Source: Pedobacter metabolipauper (GTDB lineage: Bacteria; Bacteroidota; Bacteroidia; Sphingobacteriales; Sphingobacteriaceae). Taken from it: 64,000 nucleotides of DNA. Position 1 is the stretch's first letter; every line of letters begins with the position of its first letter. The notes under the pieces are model-generated. The model searched no databases and was not told the origin of the DNA. It worked only from the letters and a program-made list of their open reading frames with translations. Below, one piece after another: positions 2,348 to 49,373 of this stretch. The translations under genes and the position numbers were made by a program. The stretch spans positions 1,117,601 through 1,181,600 of the forward strand of contig NZ_SNYC01000003.1 in assembly GCF_004362715.1 (NCBI RefSeq), read 5' to 3'.

Positions 2348-3694
2348 ATGGTAAAGCTAACCCTGCTATTCGTCCTTTTTACACATTTTACCTCTGCCAA
2401 ACTGAAAAGTGAACCCATTAATGTGTCATCCGTTATTTCTGATGATGCCATCTTTGGAAACATTACCCCTTACACTCCGAAAAATCTTGTAACATGTACG
2501 CCGGAAAACAATGTGGTACGTTTCCCGGTAAAAATTGCAGTACGTACCACTGATAGCAGACCAGACAGCATTACGGGAAAGGTATTGGATGTCAACTTTA
2601 ATACCCTGTTAAATGCACCAATAGGCTCTATAAAGCTCAGTCAGTTAAAGGGCAAAATTGTACTGATTGATTTTTGGGCTACCTGGTGTGGATCCTGCCT
2701 TGTCGCCATGCCCCATTTAAAAGAACTGCAGAAAAGATACCCGGAACAGCTGCAGATCATTACCGTTACGGATGAAACTGTTAAACGGACCCGCCAATAT
2801 TTGTCTGCAAGGCCATCAAACCTGTGGTTTGCCGTAGATACGGCCAACCATATTGCTCAGCAGTTTCCACACCAGCTCATACCGCATGCCGTACTGATCT
2901 CTAAGGAAGGCAGGCTTATTGCAAACACTGATCCAGCTTCCATAACCACAGCTGTCATAGACAGCCTGTTAAAGGCCCGGAAAGTAAATTTACCAGAAAA
3001 GAAAGACATCCTGATCTCTCATGAAGAAATCATGAAAACTTATTTTGATGCTGCCGATACCACCACACACCGTTTTTTAATACAGCCAGAAATTAAAGGG
3101 GTATCCGGTATGCGCAGCACCCATTTAATGGATCCCATTTTTAAAGGAAGAAGAATCACATTCATCAATGTTAACCTTTCTACTATATACAATACCGCTT
3201 TTGGTGATTTTTCACCTGGCAGGACCATCAATAAAATTCCTGAAAACAGTAAAGATCCACTGTATTGCCTTGATCTGATCGTTATGCGGTCCAAAGATCT
3301 CCTGCCAGCCCTTCAGCAGGAACTCTTAAAAAGATTTGACCTTCAGGCTAAGATTGTGCAGCAGGATAAACAAGTATACCTGTTAAAGATCAGCGACCAG
3401 TCAAAATTTAAGCAGTTGTCCGTTAACCAGTCCGGTATAAGAACCTATTACTCCAGACATGGAGAAATTGATCAGCAATCGATAACCATGGATGATCTTG
3501 CCGATTACCTGGAGAGCTATGGTACCGGGAAACTTCCCGTAATCAATCAAATCCATGTTGCTAAAAAATACGACATCAAATTTTCATTCCAGCCTGAAAA
3601 TCCGGAAAGTCTAACACAGGTGTTAAATGACATGGGATTAAAACTGGAAAAGAGCAGAAAGAAGATAGACCTGCTTTTACTATTTAAGAATTAA
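2348..3694 (+). CDS. TlpA-like thioredoxin with DUF3738-like C-terminal domain
   Basis: Predicted exported thiol-disulfide protein with two domains. Residues 1-17 look like a signal peptide ending FTSA. The thioredoxin-like domain lies at about 85-205: strand VLIDFWATWC, redox pair C114/C117 in WCGSC, and a cis-proline at P179 in LIPH. The rest (about 225-448) fits the soil-associated DUF3738 (TIGR03435) pattern: a region with ELLKRFDLQAKIVQQDKQVYLLKI, then a tail around KKYDIKFSFQPENPESL and MGLKLEKSRK. DUF3738 has no defined reaction. In Bacteroidota such proteins often sit near BlaR1-like M56 peptidases, but none is in this window. The gene is divergent from the upstream kinase and appears to stand alone. 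The thioredoxin call is firm and the DUF3738 call is probable. Confidence 0.82.
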   Translation: MVKLTLLFVLFTHFTSAKLKSEPINVSSVISDDAIFGNITPYTPKNLVTCTPENNVVRFPVKIAVRTTDSRPDSITGKVLDVNFNTLLNAPIGSIKLSQLKGKIVLIDFWATWCGSCLVAMPHLKELQKRYPEQLQIITVTDETVKRTRQYLSARPSNLWFAVDTANHIAQQFPHQLIPHAVLISKEGRLIANTDPASITTAVIDSLLKARKVNLPEKKDILISHEEIMKTYFDAADTTTHRFLIQPEIKGVSGMRSTHLMDPIFKGRRITFINVNLSTIYNTAFGDFSPGRTINKIPENSKDPLYCLDLIVMRSKDLLPALQQELLKRFDLQAKIVQQDKQVYLLKISDQSKFKQLSVNQSGIRTYYSRHGEIDQQSITMDDLADYLESYGTGKLPVINQIHVAKKYDIKFSFQPENPESLTQVLNDMGLKLEKSRKKIDLLLLFKN

Positions 3695-5974: not shown

Positions 5975-6424
5975 ATGTTAAAATATACCGATGTCATTAA
6001 ATTTGCCAATCATGGCAATCCAGCTCCGGAAACAACAGTTGTTAAAACGGATGCAGAATGGCGTGAACAATTGTCTGAAGAAGAATACCGGATCACACGG
6101 CTCAAAGGAACAGAACGTGCACACAGTTCTGAAATGTGCAGTCTTTTTGAACCGGGATCTTATGCCTGCGTATGTTGCGGTACTTTATTATTCGATGGGC
6201 AGGAGAAATTTGAATCCGGAACCGGATGGCCTTCATTTACACAACCTGTACAGGATAATGCCGTAGCTTACCATAGCGATTCAAGCTTTGGAATGATCAG
6301 AGTTGAAGCCTTATGCAATACCTGTCAGGCTCATTTGGGGCATGTTTTCCCGGATGGTCCCGCACCCAGCGGTCTGCGTTACTGCATGAATGCGGTATCG
6401 CTCAAAAAAGTCACTGAAGCATAA
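5975..6424 (+). CDS. msrB: Peptide-methionine (R)-S-oxide reductase
   Basis: Reduces the R-epimer of methionine sulfoxide in oxidised proteins, with thioredoxin as the usual electron donor. All family marks are present: zinc-binding pairs C65/C68 and C114/C117, the ESGTGWPSF motif (80-88), HLGHVFPDGP (120-129) and catalytic C137 in RYCMNAVSL. The length of 149 residues is usual, and there is no signal peptide, so it is cytoplasmic. No msrA is fused or adjacent. The start at 5975 fits the family N-terminus. Confidence 0.95.
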   Translation: MLKYTDVIKFANHGNPAPETTVVKTDAEWREQLSEEEYRITRLKGTERAHSSEMCSLFEPGSYACVCCGTLLFDGQEKFESGTGWPSFTQPVQDNAVAYHSDSSFGMIRVEALCNTCQAHLGHVFPDGPAPSGLRYCMNAVSLKKVTEA

Positions 6425-6447: not shown

Positions 6448-7194
6448 TTAACGAAGCTTAATACCGACACTGATGCCTGGAAATATTTTCTTAAAATCAT
6501 GAGTAAGGTACAATTCAGGCTTAATCCTGATAAATGAATTATTTGGCACTATAGTGCCAAATAATTTAAATGTATTCCCTTCAAAATAATCACCGCTCTG
6601 TTTCACCAGGTATCCTAATCCTATTGACAGTTCATCAAAATATTGGTATTGGTAATTACTGATCTTATTGTTGTACCGGTTTCCAAAGCTGGCTTCAACA
6701 AAAATTTGGGAAAAGGTTTTATGGCGATCTGCCCCATCTGTATCAAATAAATAACACGCATTTATTGCCACATTGATAAATGTATAGAAACCTGGATAAA
6801 GTTTACTGTAATAATCCTGTCTCTGGGGGGCAAAATCCAGTGCTAATCCTAACGAGGGACTTACTTTATCCCGGATTAAACCAGCACCAATCAGCGGTTG
6901 GAATGCAAATATCTGATGCTTTTTAAGTACCTTATAATATCGTTCTTCCATTGAAAGCTTCTTTTTCTTAAGCGTATCCAGTTTACGCTGCATTAAGGAA
7001 TCTTCAACAGCTTGCAAAGCTTTGCGGATAAGCGAATCTGTTTTCATGTTTTTAAAAACATTCAGATCATTACCTATTAAAATAACCTTCTCTCCTGTTT
7101 TGGTTTCCATTACCAGGGTATCCGGCACTTTTGTCTGCGAAAAAGAAAAGAAAGAAAACAGCAGGAACATTCCTGTTAACAATGGATATTTCAT
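6448..7194 (-). CDS. Predicted outer-membrane beta-barrel protein, last gene of the sigma-factor operon
   Basis: A 248-residue protein with a signal peptide (MKYPLLTGMFLLFSFFSFSQ). A charged helical region (about 50-105) precedes a C-terminal half of alternating aromatic and polar strands ending in SVGIKLR, as in small outer-membrane barrels. No named family is certain. It starts one base after the stop of the anti-sigma-like gene, the closest spacing in the operon, which suggests that the two products work together. The DNA for residues near KLFGTIVPNN forms a perfect 30-bp palindrome (6537-6566). Possible roles are an outer-membrane sensor for the anti-sigma protein or a structural porin-like protein. 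Confidence 0.75.
   Translation of the reverse strand: MKYPLLTGMFLLFSFFSFSQTKVPDTLVMETKTGEKVILIGNDLNVFKNMKTDSLIRKALQAVEDSLMQRKLDTLKKKKLSMEERYYKVLKKHQIFAFQPLIGAGLIRDKVSPSLGLALDFAPQRQDYYSKLYPGFYTFINVAINACYLFDTDGADRHKTFSQIFVEASFGNRYNNKISNYQYQYFDELSIGLGYLVKQSGDYFEGNTFKLFGTIVPNNSFIRIKPELYLTHDFKKIFPGISVGIKLR
6537..6566. repeat. Perfect 30-bp palindrome inside a coding region
   Basis: The arms 6537-6551 (AATTATTTGGCACTA) and 6552-6566 are exact reverse complements with no spacer. The site lies in the last third of the barrel-protein gene and encodes ordinary residues there. It could be a cruciform, an mRNA hairpin near the operon end, or a protein-binding site. Confidence 0.9.
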
Positions 7195-7195
7195 C

Positions 7196-7954
7196 TTAGA
7201 ATTTAATTTTAAATTTAAAGGGTTTAGCCTCTACATAATACAATGAGTCACCTGGCAAAGCTTTATTATAGTTAAAAACAGGACTTTTCCCTTTAAACAG
7301 GGAGACTTTAACAGGCAGTACCGCTTCTGCTTCCTGCGGTTTACCGCGCTTAAAGGTAACTGTGCTTAATGCTGCATATGTAGCCTCAGAAATGGCCACT
7401 TCTTTCCTTACCACTTCTTCATGCGCTTTAATGGAAGCAGTACCATTAGGATGCTGTGCCTGAACACCAGTAACAGATTCAGAGCGTTGCTCTTTAACGG
7501 AAGCGGTATGTTCTGTTTTGGCAGGCATAATACCCGAAATAGCTGTATTAATTGTCACTGAACCCGGTTTAATAATTGCCGAAGCCGTTAAATCAACAGA
7601 TTCCAATTTTTCTGCAATTGTAGTTTTTGTTCGATCAATACGTTGTCCTTCAATCAATTTTTCCTTAACTGTAGCTTCCGTTCGATCGCTCTGCCGAACA
7701 GCCTGATCCCGTTTAGGATTTTGAAATTTATCATTTGCTTGTTGAAACGGATGTTTTTCATTATCATAGAATGATAAAGCAAATGCCATAAGCAAGATAA
7801 CGGCAGCTGAAAGTGCCGAATATAGCTTCGTTCTATTCCCGCTCCCTGCTTTACTTTTATTCCAAACCCGATTCCGGTTAAAAGAAGGAACATGCTTTTC
7901 ATCATGTTTAAGTACCGCGTCTTGTAATGCCTGATCAAACTTTTCTTTTTCCAT
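7196..7954 (-). CDS. Putative anti-sigma factor with one membrane segment
   Basis: A 252-residue protein from ATG at 7954 (MEKEKFDQALQDAVL); an ATG at 7969 is also possible. Layout: a cytoplasmic N-terminus of about 45 residues including the VPSFNRNRVWNKS segment, a single membrane helix (LYSALSAAVILLMAFALSFY, about 46-65), then a low-complexity periplasmic region of about 185 residues ending in alternating hydrophobic residues (PFKFKIKF). Known anti-sigma factors of ECF sigma genes in Bacteroidota have this topology. The gene overlaps the end of the sigma-factor gene by 20 bases and is followed one base later by a barrel gene, so it probably holds the sigma factor and passes on a signal from the envelope. 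The sequence alone does not show a known anti-sigma domain. Confidence 0.7.
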   Translation of the reverse strand: MEKEKFDQALQDAVLKHDEKHVPSFNRNRVWNKSKAGSGNRTKLYSALSAAVILLMAFALSFYDNEKHPFQQANDKFQNPKRDQAVRQSDRTEATVKEKLIEGQRIDRTKTTIAEKLESVDLTASAIIKPGSVTINTAISGIMPAKTEHTASVKEQRSESVTGVQAQHPNGTASIKAHEEVVRKEVAISEATYAALSTVTFKRGKPQEAEAVLPVKVSLFKGKSPVFNYNKALPGDSLYYVEAKPFKFKIKF

Positions 7955-8486
7955 ATTGATTTGATTCAATGTCTAATTTTTCTTTCATCATTTTCCTGGC
8001 TTTGTTTAGCTGAGAGCGTGATGTGCCTTCATTTATACCCAACATAGCCGCAATTTCCTTGTGGCTGTATCCTTCAATTGCAAATAAATTAAGAATGGTC
8101 TTATATCCTATCGGCAATTCATTTAAAGCCCTTACAATATATTCTGCTTCAATTTTTCCCAGGTTATGATCTGCATAGCTGATTTCTTCATGGTCGGAAA
8201 GGCTTACCAGCGAGAAGTTGACAGATTTGCGCAATCCCATCAGGCATTCATTCACCATAATTCGTTTAATCCATGCCCGTAAACTGTTTAAATCCCGGTA
8301 CTCAAAATCGGGCATAAATTTAAAGACCTTTGTAAACCCCTGAGACAGCATGTCCTCTGCTTCTTCCCTATTGTTCATATACCTGTTGCACACATTGAAC
8401 ATTTGACCGGCAAAAAAGTCAAATAGTTTCTGCTGACCTTTTCGCCGTCCTTTCTTACAGTCCTGTATGGTATCTATTGTAATCAA
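7935..8486 (-). CDS. ECF (sigma-70 family) sigma factor
   Basis: Extracytoplasmic-function sigma factor. Region 2 covers DCKKGRRKGQQKLFDFFAG through NREEAEDMLSQGFTKVFKFM, and region 4 is the ELPIGYKTILNLFAIEGYSHKEIAAMLG helix-turn-helix followed by GTSRSQLNKARK. The frame is open from ATG at 8558, which would overlap the upstream gene by 68 bases and add residues atypical of the family. A TTG at 8486, four bases after the upstream stop, begins just before region 2 and gives 183 residues, so I prefer it; the true start needs proof. It sits third from the end of a four-gene operon with a putative anti-sigma factor and two envelope proteins. Confidence 0.85.
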   Translation of the reverse strand: MITIDTIQDCKKGRRKGQQKLFDFFAGQMFNVCNRYMNNREEAEDMLSQGFTKVFKFMPDFEYRDLNSLRAWIKRIMVNECLMGLRKSVNFSLVSLSDHEEISYADHNLGKIEAEYIVRALNELPIGYKTILNLFAIEGYSHKEIAAMLGINEGTSRSQLNKARKMMKEKLDIESNQYGKRKV

Positions 8487-8490
8487 TGGT

Positions 8491-9591
8491 TTATTTACCG
8501 AGAATAAGTGCAAAAGATAAGTAATACGTTTGGTTATATCTGCCAATATCATAACCAACAGAAGGCATAAAGGAGCCCATTGTTAAACTAAATCCAAGTT
8601 TAGCACCATAATTGAAATTCCCAAATTCAGGGATAACTCCGGATGCAATTACAGCGTCCGGTTGTTTGGTACTCCATAAATTAAGTCCGGCGTATGGAAT
8701 CACATTAAACCAGATTGGCTGTTTTCCACTTTGAAAGTATTGGTGGGTACCGATCTTAAAACCAGTAACCAATGGAAGGTCTAAATGATGAAGCCTATGC
8801 TTAATTCCTGAAAATGATCCGCTGCGAACGCCAAACTGCAACCCCGGCTGAAAGTAAAACTTCCGCGCTCTGTAATCCATAAAATAGGTGAACTGATAGC
8901 CTGGTAAATAATGGCGCTCTGAATGGTCCATATCATTTAAACGGATCCCGAGCGATACACCAGGCTTCCATTTGCTAAACATAGCCACATAATACATTTT
9001 CATAAACCTGCTGGGTTTACGGGACATGATGATCTGGTATTCGCGATCGGCAATGCTATCTGGTTTGGGCTTTCTGATCTGAGCGCCCGAAGTAAGATCT
9101 GAAGGCAATTTCAGCACACTATCATCTGCTGCATTCAGCTGGCTGTCCTTTGTCAATGCGGCAACATCTGAAACCGGTTTCATCATGGAGCTTGGCGAAC
9201 CAACATTGCTGATGAATTCTTTAAACTGCTTTAATTTCACCCCACCTACCAGGTGTTTTAAAATGACCTCGTCCGGATTAATGATATAAAAATCAGGGAT
9301 CCCCACATTCTTAAATTTCAGATATACCCGTTTGCCTTTTTCTGTATCGATGTCCAGCTTTAAGGCGACAAAGTTTTTAGTGACGTAATTTGTGATGCTG
9401 GCATCCGGAAAGATCATCTGCTGCATGTATTGACATGGTCCGCACCAGGTTGCCGTAAAATAAAGCAATACCTGTTTATCCTCAGTTTTGGCTTTTAGCA
9501 GTGCCTGCTGATACGTACCCGGAAAAAAGTCTATTGCATACATCGGCAGTGCAAAGAAAAGAAATAGAATTGTTGAATAAAATGGTTTCAT
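8491..9591 (-). CDS. Secreted thioredoxin domain fused to an outer-membrane beta-barrel
   Basis: A 366-residue protein from ATG at 9591 (an upstream ATG at 9621 would put ten polar residues before the signal peptide). Signal peptide 1-19 (ending PMYA); thioredoxin fold at about 24-130 with C50/C53 in TWCGPCQ and a cis-proline at P99 in VGIPDF; a polar linker at about 131-195; then about 170 residues (about 200-366) of amphipathic, aromatic-rich strands (for example GYQFTYFMDYRARKFYFQPG) ending in YYLSFALILGK, typical of a PorT/OmpA-like barrel. The product would place a redox-active thioredoxin in the periplasm, tethered to the outer membrane. It heads the operon with the ECF sigma factor and anti-sigma-like gene. 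The barrel call rests on strand pattern only. Confidence 0.75.
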   Translation of the reverse strand: MKPFYSTILFLFFALPMYAIDFFPGTYQQALLKAKTEDKQVLLYFTATWCGPCQYMQQMIFPDASITNYVTKNFVALKLDIDTEKGKRVYLKFKNVGIPDFYIINPDEVILKHLVGGVKLKQFKEFISNVGSPSSMMKPVSDVAALTKDSQLNAADDSVLKLPSDLTSGAQIRKPKPDSIADREYQIIMSRKPSRFMKMYYVAMFSKWKPGVSLGIRLNDMDHSERHYLPGYQFTYFMDYRARKFYFQPGLQFGVRSGSFSGIKHRLHHLDLPLVTGFKIGTHQYFQSGKQPIWFNVIPYAGLNLWSTKQPDAVIASGVIPEFGNFNYGAKLGFSLTMGSFMPSVGYDIGRYNQTYYLSFALILGK

Positions 9592-9733
9592 ATATTTTGT
9601 GTTATAACCACATAATGCCATTTGAACATCAAACGTTGCCTGGATCTTTGTAAATAGTCCGTTAATTATTGCGTTACTGTTTTAATCGGATAAAATGATG
9701 TTTATATTGTCCCGACATTTCAAATCCAATTAC

Positions 9734-47127: not shown

Positions 47128-47712
47128 ATGAACCTCTTTGTTAAGCAAAGTTCCAGGCTGATTAAGGGCTGCAAAGCCAATGACAGAAGTGCCCAGGAAG
47201 GCTTATATAAGCAGTTCTATGCCGAAATGTTAAGGATATGCTATCGCTATTTAAAAACTGACGATCTTGCATCTGAAGCACTAAATACAGGGTTTTTAAA
47301 GGTTTTTAGCCACATTAATGAATTTGATGAAGTTAAGGGTGAGCTGGGTGCCTGGATCCGTACCATTATGATCCGGACGTGTATTGACCTTTCCCGGAAG
47401 GAATTAAAATTCAGCAGCATCAGCAATTATACCGATGATTTGGAATCTGTCTTTGTAGAACCGACCATACTCAGTAAGCTTTATGCAGAAGACTTGTTGA
47501 AAAGTATCCGCAAACTACCTGAAGCCTCAAAATTGGTCTTTAACCTTTCTGTGCTGGATGGTTATTCCCACAGGGAAATTGCCGGACAGCTAAACATTAG
47601 CGAAAGTACTTCCAGGTGGCATTTGTCTGAAGCTAAAAAACTGTTAAGGGCAATGCTTACCCGCTCCACAAATAAAATGTATCCTCCAACTGATAATAAT
47701 AAGGCCACATGA
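47128..47712 (+). CDS. ECF sigma factor
   Basis: A 194-residue ECF sigma factor. Region 2: GCKANDRSAQEGLYKQFYAEMLRICYRYLKTDDLASEALNTGFLKVFSHI; region 4: KLPEASKLVFNLSVLDGYSHREIAGQLNISESTSRWHLSEAKKLL. It ends four bases into the next gene (47709-47712), which encodes a dual-membrane anti-sigma-like protein, so the two are translated together. Target promoters unknown. Confidence 0.94.
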   Translation: MNLFVKQSSRLIKGCKANDRSAQEGLYKQFYAEMLRICYRYLKTDDLASEALNTGFLKVFSHINEFDEVKGELGAWIRTIMIRTCIDLSRKELKFSSISNYTDDLESVFVEPTILSKLYAEDLLKSIRKLPEASKLVFNLSVLDGYSHREIAGQLNISESTSRWHLSEAKKLLRAMLTRSTNKMYPPTDNNKAT

Positions 47713-49373
47713 GAAATTCAGCTTGGTATTCTAAATTATGGCATAAAAAGCTTGGTGAAATTCCTTTAAAGGAGGATGCTGCTGCTGCATGGCAAAATAT
47801 GAACAGTTTACTCGATCAGCAGCTGCCGGTTAACAGCACGCCTTCTTCTGCCACCTCAGCCGGGCATACCGCTGCCGGGCATGCTGCGAAATCAATTGCT
47901 GCAAAGATAGCCGGGTATTTGGGTTATATACTTCCTGCTGCAGCAATCATCAGCACTACCGTTTATTTCTTCTCTCTGGGTTCGGATCAGTCCAAATCTA
48001 TTGATCCTGTAAAGGATCAGAAAGTAAGAGCAGCCACTAAGTTTACAGATACTGCAGTTTCCAATGATCCTGGGCTTGATTCTCTTGAGTCTGCTACAGA
48101 TACTTCGTTTAACAACGCTGGTATTCCTGAATTTGCTGGTGCAGATGCAAATTTAGATCTTACTGGTGCTGTCCGCAAGACTGCCGGGTCTAAGCCGCTT
48201 GGTGTAAATCAAACCCAGGTGTCTGCATCGCCCCTGGCTTCTTCAAATTCTTCAGGTGTTCCTGCCATTCAAAACGGAAATGCATCATCTGGCAAACCCC
48301 GTACAAGTTCTCCTTTAACGCCATTTCAGAACACAAGGGCATCATCTGGTAAAACCGATACAAAATCTGCTTCCGTATATCAAAGGAAAACGGTATATGC
48401 TGCCCGATCCCATAAAAACACCCCTTTAATTGAAGATCAGAACAAAACCGCTGGATCCGGTCAAACCCGGGGAAACCCACATGTATCCACTAATCAGGGT
48501 TGGAATTTTAGCAGTAATGGGATCCTGCAGCCTGTAGTGCACAACGGTTCAGGTATTGTCCAATCAGCAGGATACACCCGGCCGGAGCACAAACTGACGT
48601 TAAATGGCAGTGGGTCCGCTGTAAGACCAAACATTCCTGGAATGAAGAAACCCGGGGATTCCAGGTTTGAAAAATTGAAGGTCAGGAACGAGGTTAAAGC
48701 AGCAAAAAGATTGAGACAAGAACAACTCCGTGCAGATAAGTATGCCGCTAAAATTAAAGCGGCTAAGGTAAAGATCATTAAAGAAAAACCTGTTAAGGAA
48801 ACTAAGCTTACTGCATATAGTTACAGTTTGGAAGCTGGTATAAACGCCTCAAAACAAAACACCTTTTATTTTGGTGCATTTGGCAGTTATGTGCTCACAC
48901 CCAAGTGGTCTGTTGGGGCTGGCCTGCGCTTAAATACCCCAAGATCCTTTTCCAATGATTACCTAGACTCTATCGCCACCCAGCTGGATTCGTTTTATTC
49001 AGTAACCGTAAAAGATCAGAGAAGTGTGCTGGTCATGGATATTCCGGTATTCCTGTCTTACAAACTTACCGACAAGCTCAGCATTAAAGGCGGGCCTGTA
49101 ATAAGTTTTCCTTTAAAGCAATCAAACATTAAAGCAACTTACATCAGGAATCAAACTGACTCTTTAGTGAATATAATTAACCCTATACTTAAAAACACAA
49201 AGATGAATGGCTTGAATATTGGATTTAGCGGTGGTTTTAATATGCAATTGAAACGGTTTGGGATCGACGCTAAATATTTATTGATGAGTCCTTATAAATT
49301 TAACAATGATCTTGGATCATTTAGAAACACCTACCAGACCTTTCAGCTGGGGATTACTTATCGTTTAAAATAA
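47709..49373 (+). CDS. Dual membrane-spanning anti-sigma-like protein (cytoplasmic head, inner-membrane helix, linker, outer-membrane barrel)
   Basis: A 554-residue protein with an unusual trans-envelope layout. Residues 1-65 are a cytoplasmic head (with EDAAAAWQNMNSLLDQ resembling the W-containing segment of Bacteroidota anti-sigma factors), 66-90 one inner-membrane helix (YLGYILPAAAIISTTVYFF), 91-368 a long Ser/Gly/Asn/Pro-rich linker with a lysine-rich coiled region at about 318-365, and 369-554 a beta-barrel (YSLEAGINASKQNTFYFGAFGSYVL to FQLGITYRLK). No cleavable signal peptide. This is the architecture of dual membrane-spanning anti-sigma factors described in Bacteroides. It overlaps the sigma gene by four bases. 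Barrel insertion while attached to the inner membrane is a prediction. Confidence 0.82.
   Translation: MRNSAWYSKLWHKKLGEIPLKEDAAAAWQNMNSLLDQQLPVNSTPSSATSAGHTAAGHAAKSIAAKIAGYLGYILPAAAIISTTVYFFSLGSDQSKSIDPVKDQKVRAATKFTDTAVSNDPGLDSLESATDTSFNNAGIPEFAGADANLDLTGAVRKTAGSKPLGVNQTQVSASPLASSNSSGVPAIQNGNASSGKPRTSSPLTPFQNTRASSGKTDTKSASVYQRKTVYAARSHKNTPLIEDQNKTAGSGQTRGNPHVSTNQGWNFSSNGILQPVVHNGSGIVQSAGYTRPEHKLTLNGSGSAVRPNIPGMKKPGDSRFEKLKVRNEVKAAKRLRQEQLRADKYAAKIKAAKVKIIKEKPVKETKLTAYSYSLEAGINASKQNTFYFGAFGSYVLTPKWSVGAGLRLNTPRSFSNDYLDSIATQLDSFYSVTVKDQRSVLVMDIPVFLSYKLTDKLSIKGGPVISFPLKQSNIKATYIRNQTDSLVNIINPILKNTKMNGLNIGFSGGFNMQLKRFGIDAKYLLMSPYKFNNDLGSFRNTYQTFQLGITYRLK

Follow-up and report, generated by a model that had tools for sequence, protein, structure and literature searches.

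A conserved four-gene sigma factor cassette with a thioredoxin-barrel fusion in Pedobacter metabolipauper, and its likeness to the Dma/Das class

In a stretch of 64,000 nucleotides from Pedobacter metabolipauper (contig NZ_SNYC01000003.1, positions 1,117,601 to 1,181,600; the whole stretch is here called the window), four tightly packed minus-strand genes encode a secreted thioredoxin fused to a predicted outer membrane barrel, an extracytoplasmic function (ECF) sigma factor, an anti-sigma factor and a second predicted barrel. A preliminary description of the sequence proposed that they may constitute an undescribed, thiol-linked trans-envelope sigma pathway, and the questions raised by the locus are whether the four genes belong together, whether a thiol links them, and what such a circuit would sense and deliver. 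Its components are the following (lengths in amino acids, aa).

6448-9591, minus strand: the four-gene cassette, in the order thioredoxin-barrel fusion, ECF sigma factor, anti-sigma factor, partner barrel
8491-9591, minus strand: thioredoxin-barrel fusion, 366 aa, with a signal peptide (by eye), a CGPC thioredoxin, a linker and a predicted 8-stranded barrel
7935-8486, minus strand: ECF sigma factor, 183 aa, TTG start, identified by Pfam/NCBIfam
7196-7954, minus strand: anti-sigma factor, 252 aa, with an N-terminal domain containing an invariant Trp, one membrane helix, a variable tether and a C-terminal strand-like segment
6448-7194, minus strand: partner outer membrane barrel, 248 aa, with a signal peptide (by eye), an N-terminal strand-strand-helix module and a predicted 8-stranded barrel

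Layout and conservation of the cassette

The cassette is real, conserved and ordered. Its four genes were all present as first described, with 4 bases between the fusion and sigma genes, a 20-base overlap between the sigma and anti-sigma genes, and a single base between the anti-sigma gene and that of the last barrel. The TTG start of the sigma gene, 4 bases past the fusion stop, was our choice; an alternative 207-aa frame from position 8558 would overlap the fusion gene. A lack of co-conservation had been named beforehand as refuting the proposal, yet each of the five complete loci has all four genes in this order. Besides the window, these are found in four genomes from two families, namely Pedobacter frigiditerrae (G078; L037/L069), a Pedobacter metagenome-assembled genome (MAG; G151; L038/L070), a Niastella MAG (L071) and another genus of the family (G191; L076). 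Identity to the window proteins is 37-41% for the fusion, 48-63% for the sigma factor (including a sixth orthologue, from genome G138), 22-32% for the anti-sigma factor and 40-49% for the barrel. Since the order and similar overlaps recur in four other genomes, the arrangement is not a product of chance.

At the same time the cassette is rare. Sigma matches of at least 49% identity occur in 4 of 145 genomes of the genus, and the partner barrel in 3 of 399 genomes of the family, the source genome being included in both counts; a match of 52 residues in G300 (E 3.8e-4), with no cassette around it, was dropped from an original count of four barrels. At E 1e-15 the whole fusion is matched in only one of 395 genomes of the phylum, which is the source genome itself. 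A first scan of contigs with the fusion alone found no relative, while a second, for which the barrel profile was used, yielded three loci, including once more those of G078 and G151.

The sigma factor (Sigma70_r2, 6.5e-11; Sigma70_r4_2, 5.1e-16; Pfam) forms a single clade with its five orthologues (support 99/94; six rows within a tree of 50). The sigma tree and the trees of the fusion and the barrel (five rows each) all separate the window and G191 from Niastella, G078 and G151, and because they agree, the cassette travels as a unit. As G078, G151 and the window represent one genus and Niastella another family, this grouping suggests that the cassette was transferred, or duplicated long ago, in its entirety. 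The trees of the anti-sigma factor and of the thioredoxin half alone were not resolved, and adding a Spirosoma protein to the latter left Niastella unplaced. With regard to a mobile-element origin, the partner barrel had no match in the plasmid collection, no integrase search having been made around the cassette.

The upstream element

9613-9640, minus strand: putative promoter of the operon, GGCAACGTTT-N12-GCATTA, placed about 21 bases ahead of the fusion ATG; proposed target of the cassette's sigma factor

The core of this element, GGCA(A/G)CG-N15-GCATT, is found upstream of the operon in all six loci (G138 included) with fixed spacing. The full motif is exact in four of them (window, G078, G151 and G138), with two mismatches in Niastella and three in G191. 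When the six upstream regions were shuffled 300 times, no word pair of such kind was common to all six, against two observed. Within the window the core occurs once, at the cassette, and in 1.66 Mb of other DNA (strands counted apart) also once, about 60 bases ahead of the sigma gene in the split relative L090 (see below). A search of five genomes for the full motif with at most two mismatches, a limit outside which G191's own site falls, returned a single perfect copy per genome in four of them, always at the cassette, and no site with one mismatch in any of the five; in the source genome (G000), the cassette site is accordingly the only match within one mismatch. The most likely and simplest reading of these patterns is that the operon is transcribed by its own sigma factor, the thioredoxin-barrel being the main output.

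The sixth locus is that of G138. Its sigma factor nests inside the cassette clade, and the promoter lies 52 bases from the sigma gene with no thioredoxin-barrel between, so that the fusion would have been lost or moved in this lineage and is dispensable at this position. The contig ends right after the sigma gene, the genome is 83% complete, and the best fusion matches elsewhere in it are partial.

In several of the related loci L090-L129 we also observed, by eye and by position weight matrix score, a related element some 50 bases ahead of the sigma gene, GCAACC-TTT followed after about 12 bases by CATCTA. It is a candidate for a family-wide autoregulatory promoter.

Split and fused relatives

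A profile of the six sigma factors, applied at E 1e-28, detected relatives in 119 of the 395 genomes of the phylum. From the top of this list 40 loci were chosen, and the genes after the sigma gene were classified by script. Nineteen were split, i.e. the gene of an anti-sigma factor of 187-363 aa preceded a distinct gene, of 269-390 aa, regarded as the barrel, and 15 were fused, with a single anti-sigma factor of 409-613 aa taken to end in a barrel. Proteins of the fused kind are those named Dma by Pardue and colleagues (PMC13088901). The remaining six fit neither class or are cut (L105, L113, L117, L123 at a contig end, L124 and L127). OMP_b-brl_2 (Pfam, E 0.01) was matched by 13 of 20 split barrels (the 19 and L068) and by 12 of 16 fused proteins (the 15 and L134); those with no such match were called barrels by their length, position and C-terminus. 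The profile of the cassette barrel matched only four further genomes of the phylum, all weakly and in the barrel part, and comparison of coordinates showed that each match falls on the separate barrel gene of a split relative (L090, L091, L092 and L097).

Both kinds occur in the source genome, which holds the split L068 (G000:C3:794758), the fused L134 (C2:349838) and another fused locus in the window itself. The latter (47128-49373, plus strand) consists of a second sigma factor of the same family and a Dma-like, 554-aa fused anti-sigma-barrel protein (47709-49373), which scores 24.9 bits against OMP_b-brl_2, just below the 27-bit cut-off. That 15 of the 40 relatives carry anti-sigma factor and barrel as one chain argues that the separate proteins touch. 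Two regions are proposed as partners in such a contact:

7199-7249, minus strand: C-terminal segment of the anti-sigma factor, DSLYYVEAKPFKFKIKF, proposed docking strand
7009-7134, minus strand: N-terminal periplasmic module of the partner barrel, approximately residues 21-62, with a putative docking role

For neither the anti-sigma factor nor the last barrel did any Pfam or NCBIfam family reach its curated cut-off. The anti-sigma factor has a single hydropathy segment (about residues 43-64), i.e. one transmembrane helix, after which the alignment is poorly conserved. Profile comparison relates its N-terminal domain both to the split anti-sigma factors (92.8%; 18 of the 19 plus L068, L108 being left out as its start was miscalled) and to the fused ones (86.3%; 16 proteins, residues 3-36 only). 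Among 15 split anti-sigma factors of the genus (from 14 of the 26 genus loci L039-L064, plus L068), conservation reaches 0.72-0.81 over the first 40 columns and 0.74-0.79 over columns 201-240, with 0.53 for the last seven, while the tether, at 0.29-0.45, lies below both ends. In two relatives (L109, 2896-4572, and L112, 3275-4366) the anti-sigma factors seem, by eye, to repeat the N-terminal sigma-binding domain in tandem.

The partner barrel was modeled by AlphaFold2 with eight strands (mean predicted local distance difference test score, pLDDT, 74), and Foldseek against the PDB returned a list headed by PagL, OmpX, OmpA, Ail and OprF that also holds unrelated folds, the best E being 0.011 and no row reaching 0.001. 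Its N-terminal module, with the pattern PDTLxxxTKxGxxxxLI..., is related to most other split barrels (97.2%, E 3.9e-11 with the signal peptide; 64%, E 6.5e-5 without it, using 15 of 19 and excluding L099, L107, L119 and L126). It was not detected by profile in the 16 fused anti-sigma barrels (1.4%). Conversely, a profile built from the 19 split barrels was passed at E 0.01 by three of the five cassette barrels. As a link between split barrels, the module test is of modest strength. Taken together, these patterns favor, without demonstrating it, docking of the tether on a separate barrel, by analogy with FoxR and FoxA (PMC11637429). In five split loci (L094, L096, L099, L102 and L108) another barrel-like gene, by eye, follows the first, which gives the impression that such operons often gain extra barrels.

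The thioredoxin-barrel fusion and the thiol link

9433-9444, minus strand: CGPC active-site motif of the fusion, residues 50-53, invariant in the window protein and four orthologues
8503-8970, minus strand: predicted barrel half of the fusion, residues 208-363, from AlphaFold2 strands, Foldseek, and OMP_b-brl_2 in the orthologue of L069

The thioredoxin half, poorly modeled by AlphaFold2, was identified by its Thioredoxin_7 match (Pfam, 5.7e-14) and by its match to PDB 2kuc (E 2e-13). C50-G-P-C53 and G97-x-P99 are invariant in all five fusions, as expected for a member of the thioredoxin superfamily, in which GxP is part of the cis-proline loop. For the barrel half, AlphaFold2 predicted eight strands at low overall confidence (mean pLDDT 59; the models of both barrels were built from five-row alignments), and Foldseek against the PDB found NspA, Ail, OmpX and OmpA for the fusion (best E 3.9e-5). 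OMP_b-brl_2 scored 22.1 bits in the window protein (cut-off 27) and 47.7 bits in the P. frigiditerrae orthologue, and was not reported by Pfam for the Niastella fusion.

Secreted Thioredoxin_7 proteins of Bacteroidota share with the fusion a signal peptide and a WCxPC thioredoxin, whereas the C-termini of the six that were inspected differ from that of the fusion, being helical or SPOR-like by eye. A secreted thioredoxin of this sort (L184, 1441-2211) has by eye what resembles a SPOR domain at its end, the thioredoxin family being joined to varied C-terminal partners. A stand-alone distant relative of the fusion, Slin_7011 (L174, 11962-12942), lies on the Spirosoma linguale plasmid pSLIN03 (CP001772.1). 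It aligns over the entire fusion (26% identity, E 1e-33, a single comparison) and likewise has a signal peptide and a WCxPC thioredoxin but, unlike the fusion, no Pfam barrel match.

According to the preliminary description, periplasmic redox state would be passed from the thioredoxin to the anti-sigma factor. The distribution of cysteines speaks against this. C50 and C53 are the only cysteines of the fusion, one orthologue having a third. None of the five anti-sigma factors has a periplasmic cysteine, the two that possess one having it either on the cytoplasmic side or within the membrane helix, and none is conserved in the five cassette partner barrels; C10, C33 and C81, kept in six sigma factors, belong to a cytoplasmic protein. 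Thus, the thioredoxin cannot act on the anti-sigma factor by disulfide exchange, and a direct thiol switch on that protein was rejected. RsrA-type zinc/thiol anti-sigma factors are defined by a Cys-His metal motif, and the window anti-sigma factor is devoid of cysteine. With G138 also keeping promoter and sigma gene with no fusion between them, the thiol-linked step is left without support, while the other part of the proposal, a trans-envelope sigma circuit, is what the co-conserved set looks like. The thioredoxin may act on other envelope proteins, and could receive electrons from a DsbD-type protein encoded elsewhere in the genome.

Other thiol-related genes were seen in the vicinity. About 3 kb from the cassette, the window encodes a thioredoxin-domain protein with a C-terminal DUF3738 (2348-3694, plus strand), a second envelope-type thiol protein. 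A methionine sulfoxide reductase gene (5975-6424) is the convergent neighbor of the cassette; a link between the two was rejected, as this orientation is convergent and no such gene was noticed by eye in the frames of L069, L071 and L076, where no family scan was made. In P. frigiditerrae (L069, 6825-9265), two more secreted proteins with CxxC thioredoxin-like ends, by eye, follow directly after the cassette. In G191 (L076, 10753-10810), the signal peptide of the fusion is in another frame than the thioredoxin, i.e. a frameshift or a sequencing error.

A proposed circuit and its alternatives

On balance we lean towards a split variant of the Dma/Das type, acting as an autoregulated envelope-stress cassette with an added thioredoxin-barrel output. 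At rest, the ECF sigma factor would be held at the inner membrane by the anti-sigma factor, whose tether would span the periplasm and dock its C-terminal strand on the N-terminal module of the partner barrel. If the outer membrane or the partner barrel were disturbed, this contact would break, upon which the anti-sigma factor would be inactivated, probably by proteolysis. The freed sigma factor would transcribe its own operon from the GGCAACGTTT-N12-GCATTA element, as the conservation of the latter suggests. The first product, the thioredoxin-barrel, would present its CGPC thioredoxin at the outer membrane, facing the periplasm, where it would probably reduce wrongly oxidized envelope proteins, and newly made barrel and anti-sigma factor would re-arm the switch.

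Several points weigh against this proposal. We infer from sequence the sigma/anti-sigma and anti-sigma/barrel contacts, the trigger, proteolysis, transcription and promoter function, the regulon, and the redox activity and role of the thioredoxin. Two of the five cassette barrels score no better with the split-barrel profile (0.19 and 0.76) than some background anti-sigma factors (best 0.36; best fused 2.5), and the four split barrels L099, L107, L119 and L126 have no module visible by eye. Among the five cassette anti-sigma factors the contrast between the ends (0.60 and 0.55) and the rest (0.29-0.52) is slight. Among the 40 features of the plasmid pSLIN03, which carries the fusion relative, no sigma gene is annotated. 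Furthermore, sites with two mismatches to the full motif number 30 in the five genomes, against 17 for a reversed control, so that other targets are possible. Of the 26 that were inspected (the other four being two in G078 and two in G000), 25 lie inside open frames of at least 80 codons, an imperfect test since the true G151 site also lies inside one; one site (L163, G151) is upstream of a TonB-receptor-like gene. A wider regulon was rejected, and no further target is claimed.

The thioredoxin-barrel could also be the sensor instead of the output, its redox state being read by the anti-sigma factor or the partner barrel as first proposed. It is present in all five complete loci directly before the sigma gene, and it is an outer membrane protein like the sensors of cell-surface signaling. 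We nevertheless regard this as unlikely in view of the cysteines (periplasmic in none of the five anti-sigma factors, conserved in no partner barrel) and of G138, where promoter and sigma gene are kept without the fusion, though the contig ends right after the latter. A thioredoxin profile also found nothing at E 1e-3 in the loci of the 40 relatives, the profile being narrow and missing TlpA-like thioredoxins. Equally improbable, in our estimate, is an ordinary periplasm-sensing sigma/anti-sigma pair with the barrels as regulated cargo that never contacts the anti-sigma factor. Operon layout and promoter require no physical contact; yet anti-sigma factor and barrel share one chain in 15 of 40 relatives and at 47709-49373 of the window, and the module accompanies the split barrels and not the fused ones. 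The rarity of the barrel (three family genomes) would suit four neighboring genes with no common function, but the order, the similar overlaps and the promoter core shared by distant genomes at different chromosomal places contradict this, and we give it very little credence.

Relation to known systems

The closest known system is Dma/Das of gut Bacteroides, described as an N-terminal anti-sigma domain, one transmembrane helix, a long disordered tether and a C-terminal beta-barrel in one chain, with an adjacent cognate ECF21 sigma factor (PMC13088901). The cassette shares with it the adjacent ECF sigma factor, here identified as ECF only, the N-terminal anti-sigma domain, the single membrane helix and an outer membrane barrel partner, with a poorly conserved, putative tether region after the helix. 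It differs in that the barrel is a separate gene, the 252-aa anti-sigma factor having no barrel match, and in the extra thioredoxin-barrel gene between promoter and sigma gene. The anti-sigma factor would work like Dma, and it is not classed as one because its barrel is the next gene and not part of the same chain. To call the system undescribed was therefore too strong, since the core is of a known kind; what is new here is the upstream element and the split form plus thioredoxin-barrel. A literature search found no description of the split form, of the thioredoxin-barrel or of an outer-membrane-anchored thioredoxin, most subscription papers, including the founding Dma paper, lying outside its scope.

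In the available parts of the reports on Phocaeicola vulgatus, a sigma/anti-sigma pair with a C-terminal barrel is induced by the toxin BcpT, the sigma gene itself strongly so, and is described as similar to EcfO/Reo of B. fragilis (PMC9308784, PMC13114119). Like the cassette, it comprises an envelope-stress sigma factor under an anti-sigma factor with an outer membrane barrel, whereas its barrel is fused, its targets include others such as nigD genes, and those parts mention no thioredoxin-barrel. In FoxA/FoxR/FoxI, the N-terminal periplasmic domain of the barrel is reported to meet the C-terminal domain of the anti-sigma factor and to shield it from proteolysis (PMC11637429), a contact like the one proposed for the cassette. 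FoxA, as described there, is a TonB-dependent receptor with a signaling domain, while the cassette anti-sigma factor has no FecR-type Pfam match. Nor does the cassette conform to the FecA/FecR type, with its predicted 8-stranded barrels and no Pfam match to FecR or a TonB receptor.

Little is settled on how Bacteroidota relay outer membrane state to the chromosome, and the signal sensed by Dma2 is not known (PMC13088901). Tentatively, and with more doubt than for the cassette itself, split-Dma circuits may form a widespread class in which the C-terminal strand of the anti-sigma factor docks on a dedicated module of a separate barrel, the present one being a closed sense-and-repair loop that has its own operon as only strong target and delivers an outer-membrane-anchored thioredoxin. 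The split version distributes barrel, tether and switch over genes that are individually deletable, and because strong copies of the promoter are few, activation is easy to follow. A thioredoxin anchored in the outer membrane, if real, would pose the further question of thiol management at this membrane.

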